Assembly (NCBI GenBank): GCA_031179845.1
Contig: JAPSHM010000003.1
Span: 1 to 46,495 of the forward strand
Direction: 5' to 3'
Length of the DNA stretch: 46,495 nt
Source of the DNA: Pedobacter sp.
Lineage (GTDB): Bacteria; Bacteroidota; Bacteroidia; Sphingobacteriales; Sphingobacteriaceae
The position numbers and the translations under genes were made by a program. Shown in pieces: positions 1,749-18,383 of the stretch. Numbering within the stretch: position 1 is the first letter of the stretch; each line of letters opens with the position of its first letter. The notes beneath the pieces are model-generated. The model was not told the origin of the DNA and searched no databases. It worked only from the letters and a program-made list of their open reading frames with translations.

Positions 1749-2639
1749 TTAAATCCAAGTATCTACGAAGCGGTACACGTTGAAATCCCCGTGCACTATC
1801 GCTTTCAAGATTTCGGAATGCAGCCGTTTCTTATCTACATCGCCCATTCTATAATGCTGAATAATTTTAAATGCTTTTTCAGCAAGCAAAAACGATCTGC
1901 GCGTCAGATCTATAGCGCCTGGTTTCAATAGCCAGTCGCACAACTCGGCTACACCCTCTTTTTTCTCTGCAACAGTTTTGAAGACAGGAATCTGCTGATG
2001 CTGGCTATGAACGAGCTTATTTAGATTGTTGGCAAACAGGTCAGCCCCTTCCCGATCCGCCTTGTTGACCACAAAACATTGCGCCACCTCCATCAATCCT
2101 GATTTAATGTGCTGAATTTCATCGCCGGATTCCGGGACCAATACAACAACAGTTTTGTCTGCTAATCCCGCAACTTCTACTTCAGACTGCCCAACTCCTA
2201 CAGTTTCAACAAGGATCATATCAAATCCTGCGGCCTTAACCACATCCACAATTTCAATTGTTTTAGCAGAAATTCCACCAAGTGCCCCGCGGGTAGCAAG
2301 GGAACGGATGTAAACATTCGGATTGTTGAATTGTTGCGACATTCTGATCCTGTCGCCAAGTAATGAACCAAAATTGAATGGAGAAGTTGGATCGATCGCA
2401 AGAATTGCAATTTTCTTCCCGTTTTTTACAATCTGTTCTGTAATGGCATTGACAAGGGTACTTTTACCCGCTCCAGGTGGACCGGTTATTCCAATCACAG
2501 GGACATTGGCGTTTAATTCTATCTTTCTTAATAACTGTGCCGCAGGCGGAATTTCGTTCTCAACCAGCGTAATGGCCCTCGCCAATGCAGTAAAGCTTCC
2601 TTCTTTTATGCCTTTTATAAGAGAATCTTCGTTTTGCAT
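1749..2639 (-). CDS. meaB: MeaB/ArgK-type GTPase, methylmalonyl-CoA mutase chaperone
   Basis: A 296-residue SIMIBI-class G protein. The P-loop GPPGAGKST is at residues 53-61, a Switch-region Asp sits in AIDPTSPF, the VETVGVGQSE segment follows, and VNKAD supplies guanine specificity. Family members load and protect the adenosylcobalamin cofactor of methylmalonyl-CoA mutase. The mutase subunits are not in this window, so the partner is encoded elsewhere. The protein is somewhat shorter than the roughly 330 residues of well-studied relatives. The in-frame codon at 2642 is TTG, so the ATG at 2639 is the better start. It diverges from the first glycosyltransferase gene across about 75 bp. Confidence 0.93.
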   Translation of the reverse strand: MQNEDSLIKGIKEGSFTALARAITLVENEIPPAAQLLRKIELNANVPVIGITGPPGAGKSTLVNAITEQIVKNGKKIAILAIDPTSPFNFGSLLGDRIRMSQQFNNPNVYIRSLATRGALGGISAKTIEIVDVVKAAGFDMILVETVGVGQSEVEVAGLADKTVVVLVPESGDEIQHIKSGLMEVAQCFVVNKADREGADLFANNLNKLVHSQHQQIPVFKTVAEKKEGVAELCDWLLKPGAIDLTRRSFLLAEKAFKIIQHYRMGDVDKKRLHSEILKAIVHGDFNVYRFVDTWI

Positions 2640-2649
2640 CAATTAAAAT

Positions 2650-2657
2650 TATCTTTG
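2650..2657 (+). promoter_or_regulatory. Possible -7 element ahead of the first glycosyltransferase
   Basis: TATCTTTG matches TAnnTTTG and lies 57 nt upstream of the start at 2715. No well-spaced TTG element is seen upstream, so only half of the promoter is supported. Confidence 0.35.
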
Positions 2658-2714
2658 TCACAAAGAAATACAATTTATTCAATATTTCATGAAAAGCATT
2701 TCTTGTGCATGTAT

Positions 2715-3524
2715 ATGTCCGAAAAGAAAACAGTCACCTTATTGATAGCTACCTACAACTGGCCCGATGCACTGGAACTGGTATTGTTGAGCATACTTGG
2801 ACAAACCCGCATGCCTGATGAAATCGTCCTAGCCGATGATGGTTCCGACTACAGGACCAGGGACCTGATCACTAAATACAAGAAAGAATTCCAAATTCCT
2901 CTAATACATGTTTGGCATGCAGATGAAGGATTCCGGCTGGCAAAAATTCGCAACATGGCAATTGCCAAAGCTTCCTGCGATTACATCGTTCAAATTGACG
3001 GCGATATCATTCTGCACCCGAGATTTATTGAAGATCATTTCAATTTCTCAGTCCGAGGATCATTTGTTAGAGCCAGCAGAGTATATATCAACCCAAAAGT
3101 TTCGCAGGAAATGCTTACAAAAAAAACATATAAAATAAATGCCTTCAGTAGAGGAGTCACGAATTTCTTCAGTGCATTAAGGGTTCCGTTTTTATGGAAA
3201 TTTTTTGAAACTGACTATAAAAATGTCGGCGATGAACTTTATGAAATTCATGGATGTAATATGGCTTACTGGAGAGAAGACGCCATAAAAGTAAACGGGT
3301 ATAATGAACTTTTTAATGGCTGGGGACCGGAAGACAAAGAATTTATTGCAAGACTTTTAAACTCTGGTGTACGGAAACGTTTCATCAAGTTGGGAGCTAT
3401 TGCTTTTCACATTTACCATCAGGAGAATCAAAAAACGTTTTTAGCGGAAAATATCAGCGCATTTAAAGACAGTATAGCCAAAAAGAGCATCTTTTGCGAA
3501 AAAGGAATCAATCAATATTTGTAA
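2715..3524 (+). CDS. Family 2 glycosyltransferase with galactosyltransferase-type C-terminus
   Basis: A 269-residue cytoplasmic GT-A enzyme. The N-terminal part has the GT2 signatures LLIATYN (residues 9-15), VLADDGSD (38-45) and the metal-binding DGD at 95-97. The C-terminal part has the NGYNELFNGWGPEDKEF block typical of the Glyco_transf_7C domain found in beta-galactosyl and hexosaminyl transferases and chondroitin-polymerase-like enzymes. The sugar and acceptor are unknown. The start is set at 2715 because the protein then aligns end to end with its neighbour at 3529, with which it is clearly paralogous (shared LLIATYNWP and QIDGDIILHP blocks). An in-frame ATG at 2709 would add two residues. 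It lies 4 nt upstream of the next gene, so the two are almost certainly co-transcribed. Confidence 0.88.
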   Translation: MSEKKTVTLLIATYNWPDALELVLLSILGQTRMPDEIVLADDGSDYRTRDLITKYKKEFQIPLIHVWHADEGFRLAKIRNMAIAKASCDYIVQIDGDIILHPRFIEDHFNFSVRGSFVRASRVYINPKVSQEMLTKKTYKINAFSRGVTNFFSALRVPFLWKFFETDYKNVGDELYEIHGCNMAYWREDAIKVNGYNELFNGWGPEDKEFIARLLNSGVRKRFIKLGAIAFHIYHQENQKTFLAENISAFKDSIAKKSIFCEKGINQYL

Positions 3525-3528
3525 CGTT

Positions 3529-4320
3529 ATGTCTGTAAAATCAGCAACACTACTTATTGCAACCTACAATTGGCCAGAAGCACTGGAATTGGTATTTAAA
3601 AGCATTTTACACCAAACTGTGCCAGTAAGCGAAATCCTGATTGCTGATGATGGTTCAGACCAAAGAACAAAAACTGTAGTCGAAACATTCAGGCAACAGA
3701 CCACTATCCCTGTTCACCATTACTGGCATGAGGACAAAGGCTTTAGAAAGACGATCATCATGAACGAGGCGCTTAGTTTTGCGAGTGGAGACTACATCAT
3801 TCAAATTGATGGAGATATCATTCTTCATCCACACTTTATAGAAGATCATATAAAGGAGGCGAAACGTGGCTTTTATATCAAAGGAAGCCGTTCTATGTTG
3901 TCAGAAGATAGGACCAGGCAGATCTTGAAATCGAGAAACACTCAAATTCATCCACTAACTAAGGGCGTAGGCAGTAAGATCAATGCCACCCGACTGCCTT
4001 TATTATCCTTTTTATTCCGTGGAGATAGATATAAATCCAACAATTTACGAGGCTGTAATTTCTCCTTCTGGAAGCGAGACTTTATCGGCGTTAATGGCTA
4101 TAATAATGACCTTGAAGGATGGGGACACGAGGATATCGAGCTTGCGGCCAGGCTAACCAACTTAGGGGTGAAACAACGGCAACTTAAATTAAAAGCCATC
4201 TGCTTTCACCTTTACCATAAGGTGAACCCACGACACAATGAAGACCTAAATTATAAGAAGTATCTGGAGGTTGTTGAAGCTGAAATTGTACTTTGTAAAA
4301 ACGGAATTAAAAAACTGTAG
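3529..4320 (+). CDS. Family 2 glycosyltransferase, tandem paralogue
   Basis: A 263-residue GT2 enzyme with LLIATYN near the N-terminus, LIADDGSD at about 37-44, the DGD metal site at 94-96, and a C-terminal NGYNNDLEGWGHEDIEL block of the Glyco_transf_7C type. It is a tandem duplicate of the gene before it; the two probably add different sugars, or the same sugar at successive positions, of one glycan. Its last 14 bases overlap the end of a glycosyltransferase gene on the other strand. Substrates cannot be told from sequence. Confidence 0.88.
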   Translation: MSVKSATLLIATYNWPEALELVFKSILHQTVPVSEILIADDGSDQRTKTVVETFRQQTTIPVHHYWHEDKGFRKTIIMNEALSFASGDYIIQIDGDIILHPHFIEDHIKEAKRGFYIKGSRSMLSEDRTRQILKSRNTQIHPLTKGVGSKINATRLPLLSFLFRGDRYKSNNLRGCNFSFWKRDFIGVNGYNNDLEGWGHEDIELAARLTNLGVKQRQLKLKAICFHLYHKVNPRHNEDLNYKKYLEVVEAEIVLCKNGIKKL

Positions 4321-16626: not shown

Positions 16627-16974
16627 ATGAGATTGATTATTGAAATTTTATTAATGGGCCTTGCCGTATTAATCGGCGCCTACATCATTCCGGGAGTACA
16701 GGTAGATGGTTATGGGACGGCGATCATCGCAGCAATTTTGATTGCCCTTGCCAACGCTACGATCGGTTTCATTCTGAGGATCCTTACGTTCCCGGTTAAT
16801 TTTCTAACACTGGGCCTGGTGTCTTTTATCATTACCGTATTGATGATTTTGCTGGTCGACAACCTGATGGGTGGTTTTAACACTTCCGGTTTCTGGGCTG
16901 CTGCATTTCTCGCTATTGCCGTTGCATTGATCAAAGGCTTGTTCAACATGATTGCTGGAACTGATAAAGATTAA
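16627..16974 (+). CDS. YvlD-like small membrane protein (phage holin family 4)
   Basis: A 115-residue protein with four hydrophobic segments at about 2-22, 31-52, 58-80 and 87-108, and the family features GAYIIPGVQVDGYGTA, ILTFPVNFLTLGL and LVDNLMGGF. This family (PF04020) is named after phage holins but is widespread on chromosomes, and YvlD of Bacillus is linked to envelope stress. Lysis activity should not be assumed. It stands alone on the plus strand, followed by a 13-bp direct duplication (16975-17000) and the 11-bp-period repeat array. Confidence 0.85.
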   Translation: MRLIIEILLMGLAVLIGAYIIPGVQVDGYGTAIIAAILIALANATIGFILRILTFPVNFLTLGLVSFIITVLMILLVDNLMGGFNTSGFWAAAFLAIAVALIKGLFNMIAGTDKD

Positions 16975-17000
16975 TCGGGCTTAAAAATCGGGCTCAAAAA
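16975..17000. repeat. 13-bp tandem duplication
   Basis: TCGGGCTTAAAAA (16975-16987) is followed at once by TCGGGCTCAAAAA (16988-17000). It begins directly after the stop codon of the YvlD-like gene. Confidence 0.8.
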
Positions 17001-17045
17001 AGACCAGTCAATGTAGTACCTGTCTTCTTCCTGAGTTATACATTT

Positions 17046-17151
17046 CTTTTGCTTTCCTTTTGCTATTCTTTTGCTAACCTTTTGCTATCCTTTTGCTCAA
17101 GCAACATAAAAGCAGCAGGAAAGCATTTTAAAAGCAGGGTGAAAGCAAAAC
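17046..17151. repeat. Mirror-symmetric array of 11-bp-period repeats
   Basis: CTTTTGCT occurs five times at exactly 11-bp steps (17046, 17057, 17068, 17079, 17090). It is followed by five copies of AGCA, mostly within AAAGCA, also at exact 11-bp steps (AGCA at 17100, 17111, 17122, 17133, 17144). Every TGCT on the left is mirrored by an AGCA on the right around position 17098.5, so a transcript could fold into an imperfect hairpin of about 100 nt. The T tracts repeat close to the helical pitch, which would favour DNA curvature. It lies between the 3' ends of two convergent genes. Confidence 0.9.
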
Positions 17152-17186
17152 CAGATCACTGGACAGTACCAGCACTGATCATAAAA

Positions 17187-17226
17187 AAGAGGCGGATGTT
17201 CAAACCATTTTGAACATCCGCCTCTT
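17187..17226 (-). terminator. Terminator of the acyl-CoA dehydrogenase gene
   Basis: Perfect 18-bp stem (17187-17204 with 17209-17226) and a 4-nt loop. On the minus strand it is followed by a T run (17188-17183). It lies 18 nt past the stop of the gene at 17244. Confidence 0.9.
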
Positions 17227-17243: not shown

Positions 17244-18383
17244 CTATCTGATGATCTCTCTGGAAATCACCATTTTTTGAATCTCTGAAGTGCCTTCGTA
17301 GATCTGTGTGATCTTTGCATCGCGCATCAAACGCTCTACATGATATTCCTTTACAAATCCGTATCCACCATGGATCTGCACAGCTTCAACGGTTACATCC
17401 ATGGCTACTTTAGACGCATACAACTTGGCCATAGAACCGGCAAGTGTGTAAGACTGGCCCTGATCTTTTAACCATGCTGCTTTATAGACCAGCATTCTTG
17501 CCGCTTCGATCTGCGTAGCCATATCTGCTAGTTTGAAGGCAATAGCCTGATGTTCGGCAATACGTTTGCCGAACGATTTTCGTTGTTTAGCATAGTCGAG
17601 CGCCAATTCATAGGCGCCGGCAGCAATGCCTAAAGCCTGAGCCGCGATCCCGATCCTGCCGCCTTCCAGCGTTTTCATGGCAAATTTGAAACCAAAACCA
17701 TCTTCTCCAATTCTATTTTCCTTCGGGACTTTGACGTCATTGAACATCAGGGAGTGGGTATCCGAGCCCCGAATCCCCATCTTATTTTCTTTGGGGCCGA
17801 TCATGAAACCTTCCATGCCTTTTTCTAAGATAAATGCGTTGATCCCTTTATGTTTCAATGATTTATCGGTCTGTGCAATAACCAGGTAAGTGGAAGCCGT
17901 ACCACCATTGGTGATCCAGTTTTTAGTGCCATTCAACAAGTAATGATCGCCCTTATCTTCAGCAGTGGTTTGCTGTGAGGTTGCATCTGAGCCTGCTTCC
18001 GGTTCAGACAAACAAAAAGCGCCTATCTTTTCACCTGCAGCCAAAGGCTTTAAGTATTTTTCTTTTTGAAATTCGGATCCGTAGGATTCCAGTCCGTAGC
18101 AGACCAGGGAGTTGTTTACAGAAACGACTACAGAAGCTGAAGCATCGATCTTCGACAACTCTTCCATAACCAGTACATAGGACAAAGCATCAAGCCCGCT
18201 GCCGTTGTACTTTTCAGAAACCATCATACCCAAAAAACCCAGTTCACCTAGTTTCTTTACTTCCTCAGCAGGAAATTTCTGATGCTCATCTCTTTCGATA
18301 ACCCCAGGCTTCAATTCTGCCTGAGCAAAATCGCGTGCAGCCTGTCGGATCATCAATTGTTCTTCACTTAATTGAAATAGCAT
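17244..18383 (-). CDS. Acyl-CoA dehydrogenase, short/branched-chain type
   Basis: A 379-residue flavoenzyme that oxidises acyl-CoA to the trans-2-enoyl-CoA. It shows the N-terminal helical domain, the FAD-site motif CLSEPEAGSDA, the W-containing strand KNWITNGG, and the C-terminal YEGTSEIQ whose Glu363 is the expected catalytic base. Length and overall pattern fit butyryl-CoA or 2-methyl-branched-chain dehydrogenases, so a role in fatty-acid or Val/Ile/Leu breakdown is likely; chain length cannot be fixed from sequence. It is transcribed alone, with a strong terminator. Confidence 0.93.
   Translation of the reverse strand: MLFQLSEEQLMIRQAARDFAQAELKPGVIERDEHQKFPAEEVKKLGELGFLGMMVSEKYNGSGLDALSYVLVMEELSKIDASASVVVSVNNSLVCYGLESYGSEFQKEKYLKPLAAGEKIGAFCLSEPEAGSDATSQQTTAEDKGDHYLLNGTKNWITNGGTASTYLVIAQTDKSLKHKGINAFILEKGMEGFMIGPKENKMGIRGSDTHSLMFNDVKVPKENRIGEDGFGFKFAMKTLEGGRIGIAAQALGIAAGAYELALDYAKQRKSFGKRIAEHQAIAFKLADMATQIEAARMLVYKAAWLKDQGQSYTLAGSMAKLYASKVAMDVTVEAVQIHGGYGFVKEYHVERLMRDAKITQIYEGTSEIQKMVISREIIR

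Follow-up and report, generated by a model that had tools for sequence, protein, structure and literature searches.

Between two convergent genes, a window of 46,495 nucleotides of a Pedobacter sp. genome (GCA_031179845.1, contig JAPSHM010000003.1) carries an array of short motifs at a strict 11-bp pitch (Table 1). Five copies of CTTTTGCT, starting at 17046, 17057, 17068, 17079 and 17090, are faced by five in-phase copies of AGCA, starting at 17100, 17111, 17122, 17133 and 17144, and every TGCT/AGCA pair of the array is exactly symmetric about 17098.5. This arrangement had been described in an earlier reading made from the sequence only, and it holds in each of these respects, as does the statement that the facing copies are mostly AAAGCA (four of the five in phase, the first being CAAGCA). 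An extra AGCA, at 17114, lies out of phase with the array.

Table 1. Features of the array locus, in positions of the window
Feature	Position	Strand	Remarks	Basis
Flanking gene, Phage_holin_4_2 family	16627..16974	+	Ends 71 bp before the first iteron	Pfam
Outer inverted-repeat half GTACCTGTC	17016..17024	+	Possible left end of the element	Read from sequence
5' arm, five 11-bp direct iterons	17046..17097	+	Consensus CTTTTGCTATC (8 conserved and 3 variable positions)	Read from sequence, repeat finding
3' arm, five mirrored AGCA cores	17099..17147	+	Spaced at 11 bp; degeneracy exceeds that of the 5' arm; relatives share polarity	
Outer inverted-repeat half GGACAGTAC	17161..17169	+	Possible right end of the element	Read from sequence
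18-bp perfect stem, terminator-like	17187..17226	.	Between the convergent genes, outside the array	Sequence scan
Flanking gene, acyl-CoA dehydrogenase	17244..18383	-	Convergent	Pfam

Tandem Repeats Finder reports a period of 11 in both halves, with 4.7 copies over 17046-17097 (score 83) in the 5' half and 3.5 copies over 17099-17136 (score 34) in the 3' half. The pattern TTTGCTN4TTTTGCT, with one mismatch allowed, matches four times in the window against 0.27 expected, and four matches were reached by none of 100 shuffles. Mirror symmetry alone is weaker evidence for this array, whose best pairing score was reached by 17 of 100 shuffles and falls below the symmetry cut. A 13-bp direct repeat (TCGGGCTTAAAAA / TCGGGCTCAAAAA, 16975-17000) directly follows the stop of the holin gene. 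A promoter role was rejected for the window copy, which lies between convergent genes and has no sigma-70-like site in a scan of a type that does not cover Bacteroidota promoters. The sequence-only reading had argued against a promoter from the convergent genes, which stands for this copy but does not carry over to the complete copies elsewhere, which lie upstream of a gene.

Dispersal of the array through Pedobacter

In the window's own genome, which is 75% complete, the strict form of the array occurs at two places only, and a reversed control pattern gave no match. The second array (contig C251) has the same centre, TTTTGCTCAAGCAA, with a degenerate mirrored right arm, and it has TCAGTACCAG at a position like that of GGACAGTAC in the window array. 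A degenerate GTRC...TATTT-like left end was seen by eye in several other array copies.

Had similar arrays been absent elsewhere, the sequence-only reading would have taken the locus for a local slippage product. The search that it proposed, when run, matched the array pattern in 17 of 145 genomes of the genus, or 14 of 145 after discounting two genomes whose matches have no mirrored half (L009 and L012, in G030 and G043) and a third (G117) from its matched letters; the reversed control gave one match overall. There are up to 11 arrays per genome, the richest genomes having 6 to 11 at one mismatch or better; the register view covered a minority of the copies in G115, G140 and G144 and none in G324. 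In the collection of species genomes, a scan returned 68 stretches, and 19 of these were taken as mirrored arrays, 18 in Pedobacter and one in a Chitinophagaceae MAG (L070). The remaining stretches, including those from Bartonella, Thiomonas and Bifidobacterium, were treated as chance or other repeats. The array of L070 is a mirrored 11-bp array with the unit CTTTTGGT, and its stretch has no DUF6266 match. Three Bartonella loci (L088, L096, L102) carry TTTGCT/AGCAAA hairpins with 11- and 33-bp steps, which lie within short overlapping frames in L088 and are possibly a separate repeat.

When the arrays are turned to one polarity the 5' arm is the cleaner and the 3' arm the more degenerate. Copies within a species have a signature in common, such as CCGCTATCT before the first unit in six of seven PLR copies. 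Of 20 arrays from three genomes, 18 are solo, judged within 3.7-kb stretches. The window array, too, is solo, with no DUF6266 gene beside it, and the dispersed element that it represents is intergenic and about 110-150 bp long. Of the three guesses of the sequence-only reading, a mobile palindromic repeat would be the best fit, in view of this dispersal, the species signatures and presence or absence at one site.

Arrays upstream of DUF6266 genes

The gene that starts behind the second array of the window's own genome belongs to Pfam PF19781 (DUF6266), a family without assigned function. Among the 27 loci of the TTTTGCT set (26 from Pedobacter and L070), five have an intact DUF6266 gene, at an array-to-gene distance of 177-193 bp, and a sixth (L019) has DUF6266 remnants at a position like that in the intact cassettes. 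Nine of the 14 genomes with TTTTGCT arrays have one DUF6266 gene with this array class in front; in the other five, an intact DUF6266 gene of the class was not found within the sequence examined. The family is present in 46 of 60 genomes of the genus, with up to 29 matches per genome, and, in a sample drawn across the class, in 11 of 198 genomes, the window's own included.

For an upstream test, loci were picked from Pfam match lists and not by their arrays; 75 were taken, four were too short, and the 71 rows scored represent 68 distinct DUF6266 genes (three were scored twice, none of those positive). At a threshold of at least 26/44 identity, a periodic array stands upstream of 35 of the 68 genes, at a lag of exactly 11 in 31 and of 7, 10, 18 and 19 in one each, while no array passes this threshold upstream of the other 33. 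Inside the genes a periodic stretch was found in one of the 71 rows, at lag 12. Nine of the 31 lag-11 genes fall in one clade (MATYSKG-type), and the array starts 103-254 bp before the gene at 19 of the 31 loci and 300-561 bp before it at 12. An earlier cut applied to 28 of these loci (lag 11 at 28/44) gave seven arrays upstream against none downstream. In the subfamily nearest the TTTTGCT cassettes an array stands upstream in 26 of 29 loci, all at lag 11 (a thirtieth locus is truncated, and three loci repeat the 71-row test), or in 17 of 20 once nine TTTTGCT-type loci, mostly known from the array searches already, are removed. The arrays of 22 loci in this subfamily lie 173-197 bp before the gene, and a near-constant distance is a property of the nearest subfamily only, not of the whole family. 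Outside the genus, periodic arrays were found at two of 11 DUF6266 loci (L257, L260). The window's own genome also has two adjacent tandem DUF6266 genes (L109, L110) with a TACCCTTG array upstream, where the second gene was scored twice and the array before the first was left uncounted, and a DUF6266 remnant with four stops (L111) that has a TTGGTTAGG array upstream.

The window array belongs to one class in a wider series of direct iterons at 11 bp, many of which continue into a mirrored half. The motifs before DUF6266 genes form many classes, among them TTTTGCT, TCTTGCT, TTACC, AACAGGGA, GATATATC, ACCCGGC, TGAACGG, TCTACGG, GTTCGCCT, AAGGGGTT and CAACCATC, and several of them occur side by side within one genome. 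A few arrays have a 10-bp pitch, yet the dominance of lag 11 across motifs indicates that the pitch is conserved and not the word. Background samples of 20 stretches of 20 kb each gave one lag-11 window in 400 kb of G147 and five in 400 kb of G012, three of the five being already known (known arrays lie in three of the G012 stretches); no other lag between 7 and 20 gave more than two, and lag 11 stands out in G012 only. Mean similarity of the array units is 0.79-0.81 for pairs of DUF6266 proteins with 50% identity or more and 0.31-0.37 for pairs under that value, while the rank correlation between array-unit and protein similarity is small (0.14, permutation p 0.002). With a pitch that stays at 11 bp and a motif that is free, the conserved property is helical geometry rather than sequence, and recognition has diversified repeatedly.

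One genome, G059, has ten copies at separate places, seven of which have about 1.35 kb in common, from the array to beyond the gene, between unrelated flanks; in the other three (L275, L276, L277) the array-plus-gene part is common and the flanks are again unrelated. Of eight G059 loci scored, four fall short of the threshold for periodicity and only four reach it, so the arrays there are decayed.

Arrays with these positions could be upstream control regions of the DUF6266 genes, bound by host regulators arranged head-to-tail at 11-bp spacing, with the solo copies as relics or new operators. PhoB/OmpR-type proteins bind in this manner, and their operator boxes are, like the arrays, direct repeats at an 11-bp pitch upstream of a gene. 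The complete arrays do stand upstream of a gene, and the -7 box consensus of Bacteroidota, TAnnTTTG, occurs in 20 of the 71 upstream regions at no more than 150 bp from the gene, against 7.1 in shuffles (other spacings gave 0 and 6). In addition, an array with its leader in G012 (L269, 3366-3592), which matches a DUF6266 cassette at 82% over 228 bp, lies before a different gene that looks fucosidase-like and, read by eye, may encode an alpha-L-fucosidase. We nevertheless consider control by host regulators unlikely, although it is the alternative that survives best. Many of the -7 matches come from one DUF6266 clade, and L042 is the sole TTTTGCT cassette of the five to have one; a single genome can carry several motif classes; and solo copies, read by eye, have no constant position or orientation relative to genes, some of them lying between convergent genes. 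The arrays also differ from PhoB/OmpR boxes in having at least five iterons, a mirrored half, many unrelated motifs and solo copies outside promoters.

The arrangement at L269 looks as if an upstream module had been exchanged between genes. Three other DUF6266 genes (L126, L134, L137) have two arrays each: the TTACC array, of 11-bp pitch, is the more distant from the gene, and a TTTAGCTCAA-like array of 10-bp pitch immediately precedes a -7-like box.

Mirror symmetry, folding and orthologous sites

Mirror symmetry beats shuffles in 20 of 25 arrays of the TTTTGCT set (19 of 24 without L070), tested without L013 and L050, the latter an orthologue of L046, as against nine of 30 other arrays. The innermost spacers pair in 100 of 115 cells against 75.9 when permuted, in 23 of 30 arrays that were kept because at least 22 of 32 positions pair, a choice that favours pairing. 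A stricter test on 18 arrays, with orthologues removed, the register re-optimised in the null and the window's array not among them, still gave 77 of 90 against 66.5 (sd 2.6; p 0.0001) for the innermost spacers, with total pairing not significant under the same null (p 0.097); the second-spacer columns of the 23 arrays show no covariation (58 against 63). The ten arrays of the window's own group exceed the permuted mean of 295.9 only slightly, with 305 of 490 positions paired (p 0.003, without re-optimising the register), and their spacer columns are mostly unpaired. The covariation of the inner stem implies that a folded form mattered at least during copying.

A further possibility is that the element works at the RNA level. 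Its long imperfect hairpin, in which 11 bp correspond to roughly one A-form turn, would then be a small RNA or a structure in an mRNA, and DUF6266 might bind it. The RNA hairpin of the sequence-only reading is upheld as far as folding goes, the window strand being able to fold as RNA at -38 kcal/mol (z -3.1). Excess stability is also found in four arrays of other classes (z -5.5, -3.6, -2.9 and -2.0), strand polarity is conserved, the inner stem covaries, and two pairs in TTACC relatives have changed on both sides. For these relatives the observed value was reached by 14-19 of 500 shuffles on three measures and by 244 and 429 on two others, and sliding the partners by one column gives a nearly equal covariation score (0.074 against 0.076). 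Two of the six folded stretches (L230, L109) have no excess stability, though the coordinates there probably missed the array; no Rfam family matched the window or six loci at gathering scores; direct iterons outrun the mirrored half in several classes; and, in regions with a visible -7 box, the array is the more distant of the two from the gene. An element working as RNA is for these reasons improbable.

The same sites were compared between species. At the site of L305 the array is present in G103 and G115, whereas the conserved flanks are about 54, 53 and 19 bp apart in G140, G144 and G056. The cassette of L302 stands at the orthologous site in G115 and G144, occurs with further sequence in G140, and is missing in G056, which has about 217 unrelated bases instead. 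No target-site duplication or precise empty site is readable at these two sites, where more than the array differs and the L305 junctions are too diverged. At one locus (L043 and L316) the array has opposite orientations in two species, as judged from the neighbouring genes. An empty-site search for one G059 copy found none, the relatives being too distant, and BLAST of the flanks for shared element ends returned little beyond orthologues, arm repeats and the DUF6266 gene.

For the window site, the 3' side of the acyl-CoA dehydrogenase gene was compared in 30 genomes, the window's own included. The genes are 95 bp or less apart in ten genomes, too short for an array, and 838-884 bp apart in four. 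Periodic stretches with motifs other than the window's reach the threshold at three loci (L158 and L160 at lag 11, L162 at lag 22), and three more (L154, L164, L167) look by eye like periodic loci; the holin gene was not found alongside in five genomes, L160 among them. The spot thus differs between species, having no array or arrays of different classes. The acyl-CoA dehydrogenase intergenic region of L143 holds a different, dispersed-looking repeat, CGTCATCTCGACCCTCAGGGAGAGATCTC.

Hairpin-templated copying together with slippage could make and homogenise quasi-palindromic iterons as a mutational by-product without function. Orthologous arrays do differ in unit number (L046 and L050, by three 11-bp units) and the inner stems look copy-corrected, but slippage leaves unexplained why so many motifs keep a single pitch (31 of 35 and 26 of 26 arrays have lag 11), why the arrays are linked to a single gene family and why the background elsewhere is low, and an origin by mutation alone seems very unlikely. 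The curved-DNA or nucleoid-protein site suggested by the sequence-only reading can scarcely be upheld, for although T and A tracts do repeat at 11 bp in the window class, G/C-rich motif classes keep the pitch (GGGTTCGG, ACCCGGC and TGAACGG arrays do so without phased A/T tracts) and the copy number is low, at two in the window's own genome.

DUF6266 and the proposed cognate site

Nine DUF6266 proteins were compared with Pfam; all match DUF6266 and none has a Y1 (HUH) transposase domain match. The other matches among the nine were to MobI in one protein (0.18) and to GNAT, SCP2_2 and ComGF (0.00037-0.2) in the C-terminal extension of another. Searches of DUF6266 against Pfam, PHROGs, NCBIfam and PADLOC, and with a profile against PDB, gave no signature of DNA binding or of a recombinase. 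An AlphaFold2 model built from three sequences (pLDDT 49) was too poor to judge and has, at low confidence, helix and beta strands. Three candidate identities were rejected, namely a known fold (the profile against PDB gave only E values of 0.69 and 2.7), a phage or plasmid protein (one or two queries had no match in phages, plasmids, PHROGs, NCBIfam or viral contigs) and an anti-phage defence protein (none of four proteins matched a PADLOC model).

In its complete form the element is a cassette in which the array is followed by a leader of about 70 bp and then by the DUF6266 gene, with the iterons set one per DNA helical turn (11 bp) and turning at the centre into the mirrored half. Taking together the fixed pitch and free motif, the linkage to one gene family, the co-divergence of array and protein and the occurrence of one cassette among many solo sites, we tentatively favour the reading that every DUF6266 cassette has a cognate recognition site in its own class of array, that this site is read at each helical turn, and that the solo sites have spread from the cassette. 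The DUF6266 protein itself would be the most likely binder, placed along successive helical turns, the array site and the gene would diverge together, and the solo sites would be spread by or from the cassette, presumably through a step that it encodes or directs, in the manner of the REP/RAYT pair. A more far-reaching version, possible but less likely than not, is that each DUF6266 paralogue recognises its own site, polymerises along its own palindrome with one site per helical turn, co-diversifies with the motif into many mutually separate specificities within a genome and seeds the chromosomal solo copies, which would make these arrays undescribed mobile or chromosome-marking elements. In either version a large Pfam family without assigned function becomes tied to a definite DNA element.

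The array with its DUF6266 cassette is of no known kind that we met, a claim that becomes weaker if DUF6266 is an ordinary operator-binding protein. Nothing explanatory was found in Rfam, PHROGs, NCBIfam, PADLOC or PDB, and Pfam gives no function; in those parts of the literature that the searches reached, no publication was recognised as treating these arrays and none used the term DUF6266. Like MITEs, the elements are short, non-coding, dispersed and palindromic and are present or absent between species, but neither a transposase nor a family of terminal inverted repeats nor a target duplication was identified here.

REP/RAYT and parC/ParR are the most similar systems in their working, yet the array fails the defining tests of each. 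REP (or BIME) sequences with their Y1-type RAYT are likewise imperfect palindromes with a strand polarity, scattered through intergenic regions, in which a single partner gene goes with many solo copies, and a partner gene among solo copies is also found here, with the array on the 5' side of the gene only, in nine of 14 genomes. REP sequences have a length of 20-40 bp and a GTAG/CGTC tag (PMC3733652), whereas the arrays here, composed of 11-bp iterons, are about 100 bp or more within elements of 110-150 bp, and the partner, DUF6266, has no Y1 transposase match in the nine proteins compared with Pfam. The parC centromere of plasmid R1 has ten direct repeats of 11 bp, and parC/ParR repeats differ between families, each with cognate binders (PMC9426499). 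The 11-bp direct iterons upstream of a gene are a likeness to parC, within the range of about 10-20 bp for iterons of such centromeres, but the arrays here are chromosomal and have their second half inverted, and the helix and beta strands predicted at low confidence for DUF6266 are a further difference. No partition genes (ParM/ParR) were found by Pfam among the three neighbours of the window array, the neighbours of other copies being read by eye only.

Some DUF6266 genes have C-terminal extensions (L264, L270-L272, L276 and L371), which suggests capture of, or fusion with, neighbouring genes. In L264, whose DUF6266 frame runs on the - strand (2344-3657), the extension resembles a thiopurine methyltransferase by eye, and that of L271 has a weak GNAT acetyltransferase match (E 0.00037, below the curated cut-off).
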